Positions 1,727 to 64,000 of a stretch of DNA of 64,000 bases are shown here, piece by piece. The notes under the pieces are model-generated. The model did not search any database. It was not told the DNA's origin and saw nothing but the letters and a program-made list of their open reading frames with translations. The first letter of the stretch is position 1, and every line of letters starts with the position of its first letter. The stretch is from Eubacteriales bacterium (GTDB lineage: Bacteria > Bacillota > Clostridia > Christensenellales > Aristaeellaceae). Both the position numbers and the translations under genes were made by a program. Where the stretch lies: contig JAQWCW010000010.1 of assembly GCA_028705775.1 (NCBI GenBank), positions 1 to 64,000 on the forward strand, read 5' to 3'.

Positions 1727-2183
1727 CGCGCTTCTCCCATGCCGACGGCGTGGTGAAAAGGCTAAGCCCAATAAGCACAAGCCCTATGCAAAGCGCGATA
1801 TCCGCAATATTAAAAACAGCGAATTCAACAAACAGCGGCTCAATCATATCGACAACATAGCCGTAAAAAACGCGGTCAAAAAGATTGCCGAGCGCGCCCG
1901 CGATGGAAAGCGCAAAGCCAACGCAGCTCATGGGGCTGAGTTTTACACGGCATATGAGCCATACGGCTCCCGCAAGAATTACAAGCGTTACTATCGCAAG
2001 CACAACCGTTCCGCCGCTGAGCATTCCGAACGCCATACCGGTATTCTCGGTATAGCAAATGCCGATTACACCGGGAATCAAGTCTATTCTTTGCCCTGCG
2101 GACAACGCCTGTGCAACCCAAAGCTTTACAAGCCTGTCAAGCGCGAACACAACAGCCGCTATCGGAACAATCCATTTCTTCAA
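1719..2183 (-). CDS. lspA: Lipoprotein signal peptidase LspA
   Basis: A membrane aspartic protease that removes the signal peptide of prolipoproteins after lipidation. The 154 residues contain four hydrophobic segments. The two conserved motifs are present: GNLFDR with Asp103 and FNIADIALC with Asp128, the catalytic dyad. It precedes rluD with translational overlap. It is slightly shorter than many LspA proteins but complete. Confidence 0.93.
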   Translation of the reverse strand: MKKWIVPIAAVVFALDRLVKLWVAQALSAGQRIDLIPGVIGICYTENTGMAFGMLSGGTVVLAIVTLVILAGAVWLICRVKLSPMSCVGFALSIAGALGNLFDRVFYGYVVDMIEPLFVEFAVFNIADIALCIGLVLIGLSLFTTPSAWEKRDE

Positions 2184-2220
2184 CAGTTAGTCCTCCAAAC
2201 TGTAAGCAGCAAAGTATGAA

Positions 2221-2505
2221 TCACTTCAGCTTATGCTGCACGATTTCAACAATATCCGCCAGAAAATCACCTATGACGGGCAAATTTGCAAGCGCAAGCC
2301 GCTGAATCACGATTACGATTATAGCGCCGAGAATCGTAAAGCCGACCGCGCTGCCAGCGCCTCGCGCAATACCGCTCAAGAAGCTGCGCCACAGCACCTT
2401 CCTTGGGTTACTCAGGTATTGCAGGTATTCAGGCAGGCGCATCCTCTCGCTTGCTTCTATCCAAAGCTCTATCTTTCTTTCCAGCTCGTCACGCGTCTTA
2501 ATCAT
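2221..2505 (-). CDS. DUF5665-type small membrane protein
   Basis: From the ATG at 2505 (GGGAGG seven bases ahead) the protein has 94 residues. The N-terminal half is amphipathic and charged and carries YLQYLSNPRKVLWRSFLSGIA-like residues leading into a glycine-rich hydrophobic segment, then a second short hydrophobic stretch with LPVIGDFLADIVEIV near the C terminus. This layout matches the DUF5665 family of small Firmicute membrane proteins often found beside lspA. Its function is unknown. It likely heads the lspA-rluD transcription unit, 37 bases upstream. Confidence 0.7.
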   Translation of the reverse strand: MIKTRDELERKIELWIEASERMRLPEYLQYLSNPRKVLWRSFLSGIARGAGSAVGFTILGAIIVIVIQRLALANLPVIGDFLADIVEIVQHKLK

Positions 2506-2580
2506 TATCACGCCTCCCAAAGCTAGAATTGCCGGAAAGCGGATAATGATGCGGATTAGGCGAGTCGGCGAGCCGTCGGC

Positions 2581-5500
2581 TCAGCGCTGAAACATAAAGC
2601 TTTCAAAATCGAAATTGCTTCCGGGAAGGAAAACGAAGGATACTTCTCCGCTGCCGACGAGCAAATCAATATCGAATTCACGCGTTTCCACGCCGTTTGT
2701 CCTTGTGAACTCTATAATCCGCGCCTCGGTTTTGCCGGTTTTATCGGTAAATCTTATGTGGATTGTATTCTTGTCTATCGGGCTGTTTCCGCATATCGCA
2801 ATGCGGCTCGCACCTTCACCGAAATTTATATCGACGAACGAAAGCGTGACGTTATTTCCGATTTCATTAACGCTGCCATCCGACACAGTATACTTATCGC
2901 CATAAATACTGTCCGCCTCAACCGCAGGTACTTTTGCAAACGCCCGCTCTGTTTTGGTGAAGCTGAAGCCCTTGATATGCACCCTGTCCTTGGTTTTGAA
3001 GCAGATTGTGTGCATACCCCTCAAGCGCTTCGGCAGCTTCCAGCGCTTCTCGTCATAGGTATTCCACTGCACGGTTTTCGGGTACTCGCCTATTGTCAGC
3101 AGCTCGCCGCCCTCATAGGGATTCCCGTCCCAAACTTCGATATGCGACGGCTCAAACGTAATGGTAAACACCCACAGCCCAATCTCATCCGAGCCGTAAG
3201 AGCCGAAATCAACGCGTTCAAAGCCGAACATGACTTCATCGGCGCTGGCAGGCGGTATTGATACCCCCCTGTCGTTTCCGTTCGGAAGCGGTTGGCTCGA
3301 GACGTTGTAAAGCCCTGCCGAAACAAAGCTGTACGGGTTGATTACCGCCTCGCCGAAGCCCTCGGCAGTAAAATGCATTAGCGAAATAATCTCGGGATGG
3401 CTGTAGCCGCAGTTAACGCTTGCGCGCAGATAAAACTCGCCGTCGCCAACCGCTTCAACGCGCACTTCGTTTCCGTTTGCGGCTATTTTAGCAAGGTTCG
3501 TGTCGATTCCCATTGCGGTAGCGGCGCGGAAGGAAACATCCGTATATGTGGCGTTTGCGGGGCTGATAATCGCTTTGACCGTCACTCCGTTATTATCGGG
3601 AGTAAGGCTCGATGACGAGCTTTTTACAAGCTCAATCTTCCTTACCGGCACTTCATCGGAATACGCCGACGGTTTATTCTCCTCGTCCGCCGATACTCCG
3701 TCATCCATAGAGGGGTTTTGGGCAGATAGGGTAAGCTGCGCTTCGGGAAGCCCTTGCGACGTGACGGTGAGCGTTACATCGCCGGCGCAGCCTCTGCTCA
3801 TTATCATTGCAAGCAGCTTTCCGGAAAACAGCCTTCTGGAAGTGCCTTTATAGCTATCGGTATCCGTGCTGTCGCCGTTATCAAGCCCGACAAGACGACC
3901 TGCGCCGGTTACGGATACGTTAACCCTGTTTGTCGCGTTTTCAACGGGCGCTCCCAGCGCGTCCGCCATCCTTATCGTTACGAAAATCATATCGCGCCCA
4001 TCGGCTGTCATTTCAAGCTTCGACGGCTCAAGAATTATGCTTGCAGCGTCGCCGAACGAACGCGCGCTGTCGCTTGCCCGAACAATTCCGTTTTCGTCAA
4101 GCCCTTCGGCGGTAAGCTCGCCTTTTTCATAGGGAATCGAAAAATCGGCAATTACATTGCGACCGGTAAGGTGGTCAAGCTTCTGAGTTCCGATAACCTT
4201 TCCGTCAAGGCTGAGGCGGACAGTCGGCAGGTTCGATACGACCCTTACGTCAATTATCTCGCCCTCGCTCCAATCCCAATACGGATACAGATGAACAAAC
4301 GCGTCTTTCTTCGCGTCCGTCCAAAGAGAGCGGCATACCCAGTACGCGTCCTTCTCAAATCCGGCGGTATCAATCATTCCGAAATAGCTGTTTTTCGTAT
4401 GATAAGGCGTCGGCTCGCCGATATAATCGAATCCCGTCCAAAGGAACGTTCCGAGCGAGAAGGCGGCGTCCCTGTCGTCGCAAAGGCAATCCTCAATGCT
4501 CACAGCGCCCCACGAGGTCGGGCTGTTGCCGAGGGACGAGCATTGCAAATCATCGTCGGCAAGTATCGAGTTTTTAAGCGGAAAATGATATATTCCCCTG
4601 CTCTGAACCACGGACGAGGTCTCGCTTCCGTATATGCACCAGTCCGGATGCTCCTCATGATGCTTTGCGTAGAATCTTTCGGCATAGTTATATCCGACGA
4701 TTTTGAGAATATCAGCGCAAGCCTGCGTGTTTTCCCACGGAATGTAGTTGCTGCCGAAAGTGGCAAAAGCGTTTTTCCTGTAATCATAGCGCTCCGCCAA
4801 GCCCTTAAGCTCGCTTGTCAGCGCCATTCCGCGCTCTTTATCCGAATGAGTATCATAGATTTCATTGCCAATCGACCAAAGAATGACGGAGGGATGATTC
4901 CTGCCCTGCTTAATCCAGCTTTCGGCGTCGCGCTCATGCCACTTTGGAAAAAATCTTGCATAGTCAAAGTCGGTTTTCTTCTTCTCCCACATATCTAAAA
5001 ACTCGTCCATGACAAGCATTCCAAGCTCATCGCACACGTCAAGCAAGGCGGTCGCGGGAGGGTTGTGCGAGGTTCTCAGGGCGTTTACGCCCATGGATTT
5101 GAGTATCATAATCTGCCTTGCGAGCGCCGCGCGGTTAACCGCCGAGCCAAGCGCGCCGAGGTCGTTATGCATACATACGCCGCTTAGCTTCATATGCTCG
5201 CCATTGAGGAAAAAGCCCTTCTCTGAATCAAACGCAATATCGCGAAGCCCAAAGCGGGAGCATAGCTCGTCAACGATTTCGCCGTTTTTGACAAGGCGGC
5301 AGGAAAGCGAATACAGATAGGGCTTATCAACGCTCCAAAGAATCGGATTATCAATCGTGAAGGTCTGCTCCAGCGCTCCGCTTGACGCGGCGACAGTATT
5401 ACCGTCAGCGTCATAAGCCGTTATTTCCATTGCGCGGCAATCCGGATTATTCACCTCGGCTGAAACATATACCTCAAAAGCTTCTCCCGCTTTTTTCGCG

Positions 5501-62758: not shown

Positions 62759-63300
62759 TGGCGAGCCACTATCCCCGCCGCAGTTTCCGCAACCTTGATT
62801 TCCGTATCGCCCATTTTAATTCCGTTTTCCTTGCTGAGCAGGACAACCGCGCCGATTGGCTCGCCGTCCGCGATGATGGGCGTAATGACCTGCGCGGTAT
62901 AGCCGTTCGCATCGTCGTCCTGCGTTACCGTTACAGCCTTGCCCCCGCCGCTTTTGTTAATCGCAATCGTCTGCCTTCCCGCAATCGCGCTTTCCATTTC
63001 GCGGCTTATCGGCTTATCAAACAAATCCTTTTTCGTGCTTCCGCTTGCGGCGACAACCTGGTCTCTGTCCGTTATGCAGGCAATATGCCCCATTGCGCGA
63101 AACAGCGACTCGGTATAATCCTTCGCAAACGGAGTCATTTCCCCTATCGGCGAATACTTCTTGAGTATTACCTCGCCGTCGCGGTCTGTGTAAATCTCCA
63201 GCGGGTCGCCCTCGCGTATGCGCAGAGTGCGCCTGATTTCCTTCGGAATTACCACGCGCCCAAGCTCGTCTATCCGCCTAACTATACCCGTTGCCCTCAT
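62746..63300 (-). CDS. spoVT: Stage V sporulation protein T
   Basis: A 184-residue transcription factor for late forespore genes. Residues 1-50 form an AbrB-type swapped-hairpin DNA-binding domain (ATGIVRRIDELGRVVIPKEI), and about 60-184 a GAF-like sensor. The ATG at 63300 has AGGAGC eight bases ahead. It heads the block spoVT, spoVB-like, mazG, hup, rqcP, as in Bacillus. Its last four codons are duplicated downstream by an inserted element. Confidence 0.95.
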   Translation of the reverse strand: MRATGIVRRIDELGRVVIPKEIRRTLRIREGDPLEIYTDRDGEVILKKYSPIGEMTPFAKDYTESLFRAMGHIACITDRDQVVAASGSTKKDLFDKPISREMESAIAGRQTIAINKSGGGKAVTVTQDDDANGYTAQVITPIIADGEPIGAVVLLSKENGIKMGDTEIKVAETAAGIVARQMEQ

Positions 63301-63477: not shown

Positions 63478-63571
63478 GAAGGTGCGATGAAGATAAAAAC
63501 TATACCCCTACGGCATAAACGGTAAATTGTACGGTTTCTGTATTACATCGGCGACACCTCCTTTCAGGCAT

Positions 63572-63605
63572 AAAATAAGGCAAATCGTGTTTTTCACGAC
63601 TTGCC
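63572..63605. terminator. Hairpin before the accessory gene
   Basis: GGCAAATCGTG and its near-complement CACGACTTGCC pair around a TTTTT loop. It lacks a clear T-run on the plus strand and could stop transcription from the MerR-type promoter or isolate the accessory gene. Confidence 0.4.
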
Positions 63606-63623
63606 CGAAAACGATGAAATTTG

Positions 63624-63652
63624 TTGCAAATTTACAAAAAGTGTGGTATACT
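63624..63652 (+). promoter_or_regulatory. Promoter of the accessory gene
   Basis: TTGCAA at 63624 and TATACT at 63647 with a 17-base spacer, 112 bases before the ATG at 63764. Confidence 0.7.
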
Positions 63653-63763
63653 AATAATTGATTTATGGCGGTTTTGCGGGCGGCATAATCTAATAGAACG
63701 TCATGAATGAATAATTCCGGAATAACATGAGTTTAAAATAAGAACGGATTAGGAAATGAAAAT

Positions 63764-64000
63764 ATGTCGAATCAGTTTTTAACAAACTACACAGAAACCA
63801 CATTTTTAGATAAGATCAAGGATAATTTGCGTCATTGTAAGTCCTTCGATTTTTCAGTCAGCTTTATCAAAAAGGCTGGCTTGGTTTTTCTGTATAAAGA
63901 TATTGAGGCAGCAGTAGAGCGCGGCTGCAAAGGGCGTATAATCACTTCTACATATCAGAATTTCACCGATATAGAATCGCTCAAATCTTTCTATTCCCTT
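63764..64000 (+). CDS. N-terminal part of a PLD-domain/DEAD-type helicase (DUF3427-like), partial
   Basis: The 79 codons seen read on into the window edge. FDFSVSFIKKAGLVFLYKDI and RGCKGRIITSTYQNFTD match what I know of the phospholipase D-like N-terminal domain of large superfamily II helicases with a C-terminal DUF3427, which occur in restriction or defence islands. AGGAAATGAAAAT lies ahead of the ATG. AT content and codon use differ clearly from the spoVT block, which suggests recent transfer. The helicase and C-terminal domains are beyond the window, so the call rests on the N terminus. Confidence 0.6.
   Translation, partial: MSNQFLTNYTETTFLDKIKDNLRHCKSFDFSVSFIKKAGLVFLYKDIEAAVERGCKGRIITSTYQNFTDIESLKSFYSL

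Follow-up and report, generated by a model that had tools for sequence, protein, structure and literature searches.

The stretch of DNA analysed here (the window, 64,000 nucleotides) comprises positions 1-64000 of a 91547-bp contig of a Eubacteriales bacterium (JAQWCW010000010.1), and the gene with which we are concerned opens at its right edge, where 79 codons of a plus-strand reading frame (63764..64000) run open to the end of the window. An initial annotation had described a change in base composition right after spoVT and, behind it, a gene whose N terminus resembled the PLD-like domain of DUF3427 helicases, and both observations were borne out: spoVT was identified to the left by its match to TIGR02851, the GC content fell from approximately 0.52 to 0.37 at 63500-64000, and the frame, once extended into the remainder of the contig, encoded a 639-residue protein with PLDc_2 (residues 43-162), ResIII (198-346) and DUF3427 (453-631) domains, all over the Pfam cut-off, with DEAD also matched. 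Searched by themselves, the 79 codons matched in Pfam only Det1 and UPF0223, both below cut-off and taken as chance. The same annotation had considered this the likeliest place for a new system, a view that had to be given up, as the gene belongs, to judge from its domains and closest matches, to the SauUSI family of modification-dependent (type IV) restriction genes, a known kind of defence gene, and this copy lacks helicase motifs V and VI. With considerable confidence, we regard it as a horizontally acquired SauUSI-family gene which was very probably inactivated by an 837-bp in-frame deletion, and whose Nudix partner is intact (Table 1). Neighbours had been singled out for inspection, and the one that matters is this Nudix hydrolase gene; taken alone, the window gene would amount to an inactive version of a restriction gene already known, and it is the pairing that would matter.

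Table 1. Features at and beyond the right edge of the window (position p of the extracted region L002 is contig position 63000+p)
Feature	Location	Strand	Remarks
SauUSI-family gene	contig 63764-65683 (L002:764-2683)	+	639 aa (P0001); first 79 codons in window
Nudix hydrolase gene	contig 65693-66076 (L002:2693-3076)	+	127 aa (P0002); starts nine bases behind SauUSI-family gene; intact
spoVT	left neighbour of 63764 gene	opposite strand	TIGR02851, 255.8 bits (cut-off 235.9)
AT-rich segment, acquired	contig 63495-66986 (L002:495-3986), about 3.5 kb		GC 0.385 (window 0.52)
Promoter-like matches (candidates)	63624-63652 (9/12) and 63631-63658 (10/12)	+	upstream of 63764 gene
Small gene, read as frameshift-broken	L002:3200-3681 approx. 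(contig 66200-66681)		frames of 41 aa and 96 aa; same breakage in L034
FMN reductase gene, truncated	L002:3914-4357		5' part lost to right end of acquired segment; start codon now in foreign DNA
DUF362 gene	beyond FMN reductase gene		at host GC

PADLOC assigned the 639-residue protein to mREase_IV, a methyl-directed type IV enzyme (8.6e-74), and its match in the Protein Data Bank (PDB) was SauUSI of Staphylococcus aureus (7clg; E 3.7e-73), over residues 6-468. The nuclease motif is present as H106, K108 and GSSN, in agreement with a HxK...GSxN signature of which the H, K, G and N were invariant in 90/90 relatives; the acidic residue of H(X)K(X)4E, which varies across the family, is a cysteine in the window protein. 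The first RecA-like domain (RecA1) carries AGSGKT, DECHH and TATPER. The substrates of SauUSI are DNA with 5-methylcytosine (m5C) or 5-hydroxymethylcytosine (hm5C), according to the available text of PMC3874153.

The target-recognition domain was modelled from the C-terminal 246 residues of an intact relative (L034, described below) aligned with 31 relatives, giving a predicted local distance difference test score (pLDDT) of 87.6. The model matched SauUSI residues 680-953 with a Z score of 17.3 (2.8 A, 211 residues) and, with Z scores of approximately 10, the SRA domains of SUVH5 and SUVH6, which are methyl-binding. From this we infer that this lineage keeps the SRA fold in its C-terminal domain, which shares about 20% identity with more distant C termini. 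The SRA part corresponds to model residues 101-241 and is wholly preserved in the window copy. Like SauUSI, then, the window copy has a PLD nuclease, a superfamily 2 (SF2) RecA1 domain and a C-terminal domain of predicted SRA fold. It differs in lacking motifs V and VI of the second RecA-like domain (RecA2) and most of the helical coupler, and in being followed by a Nudix gene; the paper on the SauUSI structure does not use the word "nudix" in its main text.

When genome contigs were scanned with the 639-residue protein, one match was L034 (CALMXN010000138.1, uncultured Clostridia bacterium), in which the best segment was 100% identical and the match was 837 bp longer. Relative to the 918-residue L034 protein, the window protein consists of a 454-residue prefix and a 185-residue suffix, both 100% identical, and the intervening 279 residues are absent; the junction, after residue 454 (contig 65125/65126), is in frame and has a 2-bp overlap with the intact sequence. 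The sequence in which the intact protein carries motifs V and VI, taken here to be those of the second RecA domain, is missing from the window copy, and Pfam found Helicase_C in the L034 protein and not in P0001. The initial annotation had named a lack of helicase motifs as counting against its proposal, and half of this was seen: motifs I, II and III are present, and V and VI are gone. What is retained is the PLD nuclease, RecA1 and the whole SRA part, with RecA2 cut in mid-domain; most of the helical coupler also falls in the missing 279 residues, by the domain limits in the available text of PMC7913695. The same text states that SauUSI needs ATP hydrolysis to activate nuclease cleavage, and because this requirement coincides with loss of motifs V and VI and of the coupler, the window copy is very probably deprived of ATP hydrolysis and coupling, and inactive. 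We therefore file it as a deletion derivative and not as a working member of the family.

Two other explanations of the shortened gene were weighed. The deletion could be an artefact of assembly or library construction, the resident gene being intact; both genomes were analysed as assemblies, and apart from the gap the 3.5-kb segment hardly differs from the intact copy. However, assemblers require overlaps of tens of bases, and the junction shares just 2 bp; the two outer joins of the segment are likewise without a long shared word, and the segment lies inside a 91.5-kb contig with host GC on either side, so that we consider an artefact very unlikely. It is scarcely credible that the truncated protein works as an ATP-independent, m5C-binding PLD nuclease or as a dominant-negative regulator, for although its frame is open, without further amino-acid change, and its nuclease and SRA parts are kept, RecA2 is severed in the middle, the SauUSI nuclease depends on ATP hydrolysis for its activation (PMC7913695, available text), and among the other unbroken frames listed with PLD+DUF3427 none was comparably short, all having at least 921 residues.

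The notion that a host m5C methylase had selected for loss of the enzyme was also considered and set aside: the C5-methylase-like gene of the window genome (G000) is split in two frames and stands among phage-like genes, the other metagenome-assembled genome (1.6 Mb) shows no methylase, and one genome of each kind decides nothing. By our own reading of its frames, this C5-cytosine methylase-like gene lies on the minus strand of L260 (G000:C34:9000-16000) at 1986-4099, split over two frames in phage-like surroundings.

The segment that carries the gene (L002:495-3986) aligned with L034:674-5002 in two blastn pieces of 99.84-99.88% identity, interrupted by a single 837-bp gap, and both flanks differed. 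The left flank of L034 has a GC content of 0.379 (for the segment and the window, see Table 1). The near identity of the two copies between differing flanks shows that the 3.5-kb segment was acquired horizontally, and recently. At its right end, the shared stretch takes in the final bases of a reading frame that extends further in L034, and whose end looks like that of pyruvate phosphate dikinase. Because the window segment holds only these last bases, transfer would have proceeded into the window host, which points to an L034-like donor. The defence-island setting suggested by the initial annotation survives to the extent that a defence gene does sit in an acquired AT-rich segment; with a length of only about 3.5 kb, and with host GC resuming behind it, the segment does not qualify as a large defence island.

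To score pairing among relatives, a Nudix gene had to lie <=250 bp from a SauUSI-like gene. Set A, found with the window protein as bait, comprised 55 loci (L034-L088), and 40/55 were paired, with the Nudix gene downstream on the same strand in 20, downstream and convergent in 13, and upstream on the same strand in 7. Set B was chosen by DUF3427 alone: 48 of 398 genomes of the phylum matched, and 46 regions were fetched (46/47 other matching genomes), 43 of which had a helicase by our own model; left out were G361 (below cut-off), a second match in G368 and the 3/46 regions without a helicase. Pairing was found in 20/43 of these, the same three orders occurring 8, 6 and 6 times, and was concentrated among the 16 best DUF3427 matches, 13/16 of which had a Nudix gene vs 7/30 other regions (Fisher p 0.0004). 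Elsewhere in the flanks, Nudix genes numbered 2 in 325 kb and 3 in 342 kb; the Poisson estimates that accompanied the counts presuppose an evenly spread background, and are rough. The loci were drawn from Bacillota, Spirochaetota, Bacteroidota, Fusobacteriota and Methanobacteriota; on plasmids, 8 of 22 matches were opened and 4 had an adjacent Nudix gene (L171, L172, L174, L175).

When DUF3427 loci were compared like for like with those of other restriction enzymes, using default flanks, a Nudix gene was present in 12/30 DUF3427 loci, 1/30 McrBC loci and 0/30 HsdR loci, the last being the weaker control in that its flanks of approximately 1.5 kb start inside the gene and reach less far. The sole McrBC match was the Nudix gene of an adjoining DUF3427 gene (L187 and L157, both G481:C61). 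On a FastTree phylogeny of 90 enzymes, from which L165 and L131 had been dropped as copies of L035 and L083, the arrangement among Nudix-bearing members changed at least 13 times, a count which is approximate given the long branches, and the partner Nudix proteins' own tree required 7 label changes. The persistence of the pair through repeated rearrangement shows that the SauUSI-like and Nudix genes are functionally linked, and the pairing of intact relatives with nucleotide pyrophosphatases is well supported. A contig from a viral collection (IMGVR_UViG_3300024268_002993; L275:2175-7700) carries four consecutive genes: GmrSD_N, SauUSI-like, a YgjP-like metallopeptidase and Nudix.

The neighbourhood has appeared in print before. 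A figure legend gives a SauUSI-MutT neighbourhood in Streptococcus (PMC7641849), and in S. suis the PADLOC candidate PDC-S07 and restriction-modification (RM) type IV were co-localised within 20 genes in 23/23 occurrences (PMC12813430); in the available parts of these papers, neither passage offers a function or looks beyond its own group. No mechanism for the pairing was found in the literature searched, which misses most subscription papers.

The Nudix partner in the window host, P0002, matched NUDIX_4 in Pfam (1.3e-21) and PDC-S07 in PADLOC (1.3e-42). PADLOC lists PDC-S07 apart from the restriction enzyme, whereas here it appears in several phyla as partner to a type IV enzyme, the partners from L171, L062 and L053 matching at 2.4e-46 to 3.8e-50. 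The Nudix box (consensus GX5EX7REUXEEXGU) is found at residues 35-56, with Ser replacing the last Gly. Escherichia coli NudG (Orf135), a 5-methyl-dCTP/CTP pyrophosphohydrolase, belongs to the same Nudix_4-type family (2rrk, E 5.6e-18). At the specificity positions of NudG, Glu33 and Asp118 are retained in most partners. Asp118 had looked promising as a sign of 5-methyl-dCTP specificity when set against E. coli MutT (67/70), and was dropped on account of its presence in non-partner Nudix proteins, counted below. The window genome has a second Nudix gene (L261:4638-5027, G000:C37), whose product shares 51% identity with P0002 and which has no SauUSI-family helicase in its vicinity.

For the intact relatives, we envisage that the C-terminal SRA domain would bind 5-methyl- or 5-hydroxymethyl-cytosine in incoming DNA, that the SF2 motor would translocate with ATP, and that the dimeric PLD domain would cut, as is known for SauUSI from the work of others. 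The Nudix partner would destroy 5-methyl-dCTP and/or 5-hydroxymethyl-dCTP from salvage or phage, and modified cytosine would thus be kept out of host DNA, where the restriction enzyme would otherwise cut. Restriction enzymes paired with a methyltransferase have obvious self-protection and type IV enzymes have none, the safety of the host usually being put down to its lacking the methylase. If the proposal is true, a linked enzyme that clears modified deoxynucleoside triphosphates (dNTPs) would let the host protect itself by way of its nucleotide pool. We put forward this role, a guard of the pool against self-cutting, as the simplest connection between the two genes, and as a tentative reading that may well prove wrong.

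A number of observations weigh against it. There was no adjacent Nudix gene in 15/55 set A and 23/43 set B loci (of the former, L044, L050, L051 and L087 run into the end of a contig, and L085 and L088 are without PLD + DUF3427 by our own model), and the lower-scoring, mostly longer class of DUF3427 proteins has one in only 7/30 regions. The presence of an intact Nudix gene beside the dead enzyme in the window carries no meaning, the deletion being too recent. The subfamily of P0002 is undecided, with 98.5 bits against the NudG-type model (cut-off 156) and 81.4 bits against the MutT-type model, both below cut-off; Arg72 and Arg77 of NudG are not kept; and Asp118, found in 55/56 partners (one gap) and in 24/24 non-partners, is no signature of pairing.

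Some of these same points would suit a house-cleaning role, in which the partner is an ordinary oxidised-nucleotide hydrolase and its link with the enzyme is unrelated to modified cytosine, serving for example to lower mutation or to supply nucleotides after DNA shredding: the MutT-type and NudG-type scores are close, and Asp118 is not special to partners. Yet the pairing survives at least 13 changes of order and is absent from the McrBC and HsdR controls, and unrelated pyrophosphatases stand in for the Nudix gene or accompany it, one kind of them being akin to dCTP pyrophosphatase 1; we regard house-cleaning as a somewhat doubtful account. Unlikely, in our estimate, is that the Nudix protein is an anti-phage weapon which attacks the modified dNTP pool of a phage (e.g. 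the 5-hydroxymethyl-dCTP of T-even-like phages) and so aids the restriction enzyme against the same phages. PADLOC does treat the family as a separate defence candidate, PDC-S07, and a review, in its available text, suggests that defence systems could monitor conversion of the CTP pool to 5hmdCTP (PMC12707154), but if hydroxymethyl-dCTP were degraded, the restriction enzyme would find less of the mark on which it depends.

As regards the unrelated pyrophosphatases, two Lactobacillaceae plasmid loci have the enzyme between a Nudix gene and a MazG-like gene, and the MazG-like product of L175 matched dCTP pyrophosphatase 1 (DCTPP1, RS21-C6; 2a3q/6sqw) with E 6.3e-12. DCTPP1 is an all-alpha nucleoside triphosphate pyrophosphatase (NTP-PPase) that is described as binding dCTP and its modified derivatives with high affinity (PMC7162842, available text), and its PDB entries include, by title, complexes with dm5CTP (2oig) and 5-Me-dCMP (6sqw). 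Such a MazG-type partner was found directly beside the enzyme in these two plasmid loci only, along with the Nudix gene.

A different small protein, termed KLVRD, is encoded 137 bp downstream of the enzyme gene in L039, a locus whose enzyme is 81% identical to the window protein and which is without a Nudix gene. The KLVRD family was also found directly beside related helicases without DUF3427, in 12/17 loci of set C, which consisted of 17 regions (L243-L259) hand-picked from a match listing (G286:C256 was not included, and G107 is L168). KLVRD was adjacent in 7/14 PLD rows and 13/25 non-PLD rows, some of these rows being fragments or near-duplicates. In 12/17 set C loci and in L168:1201-3830, the KLVRD reading frame overlaps or touches the beginning of the frame for an SF2 helicase of 750-800 aa that has neither PLD nor DUF3427, and the two look like a separate two-gene unit; PADLOC gave no match for the L168 small protein. 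Tandem PLD-SF2 pairs were seen at L055:8341-11099, L083:8343-11098 and L132:3166-5953, one enzyme being of the SauUSI type with Nudix and the other without DUF3427 and with KLVRD, so that each enzyme type has its own small partner in these loci.

The KLVRD model (pLDDT 94.2) had iMazG as its best structural match (Z 7.8), followed by HisE, MazG and DCTPP1 at approximately 6-7, none reaching 8; a Foldseek search with the model returned no significant match, and hhalign against the MazG partners gave a probability of 45%. Of all folds, the predicted one comes closest to those of MazG, HisE and DCTPP1, at a level below that counted as certain. It is conceivable, if rather unlikely, that PLD/SF2 modification-dependent enzymes come with a dedicated pool guard, a pyrophosphohydrolase with one of two or more unrelated folds (Nudix, or all-alpha and MazG/DCTPP1-like), which destroys the modified dNTP matching the enzyme's target base and so keeps the host from building that mark into its own DNA. 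The target domain would then predict the guard, SRA/DUF3427 enzymes going with Nudix and those without DUF3427 with KLVRD.

Of the remaining features, the promoter ascribed to the 63764 gene by the initial annotation was upheld only as far as promoter-like matches upstream (10/12 and 9/12), which do not establish a promoter; the region has 4 such sites vs 1.6 +/- 1.3 in shuffles. A plasmid search with window positions 63495-64000 gave no match. An empty site was sought at the DUF362 loci of relatives, where an FMN reductase gene was found in 0/9 other loci (the tenth being the window's own), and the uninterrupted arrangement was not demonstrated. The pieces of the broken small gene that were tried had no family match. 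Between spoVT and the 63764 gene, within the acquired segment, lies a terminator-like hairpin on the minus strand (63578-63606; 12 pairs, T-rich tail), and two related repeats carrying CCGTTTCACGCTTATAC flank the broken small gene, at approximately L002:3108-3161 and 3702-3757.
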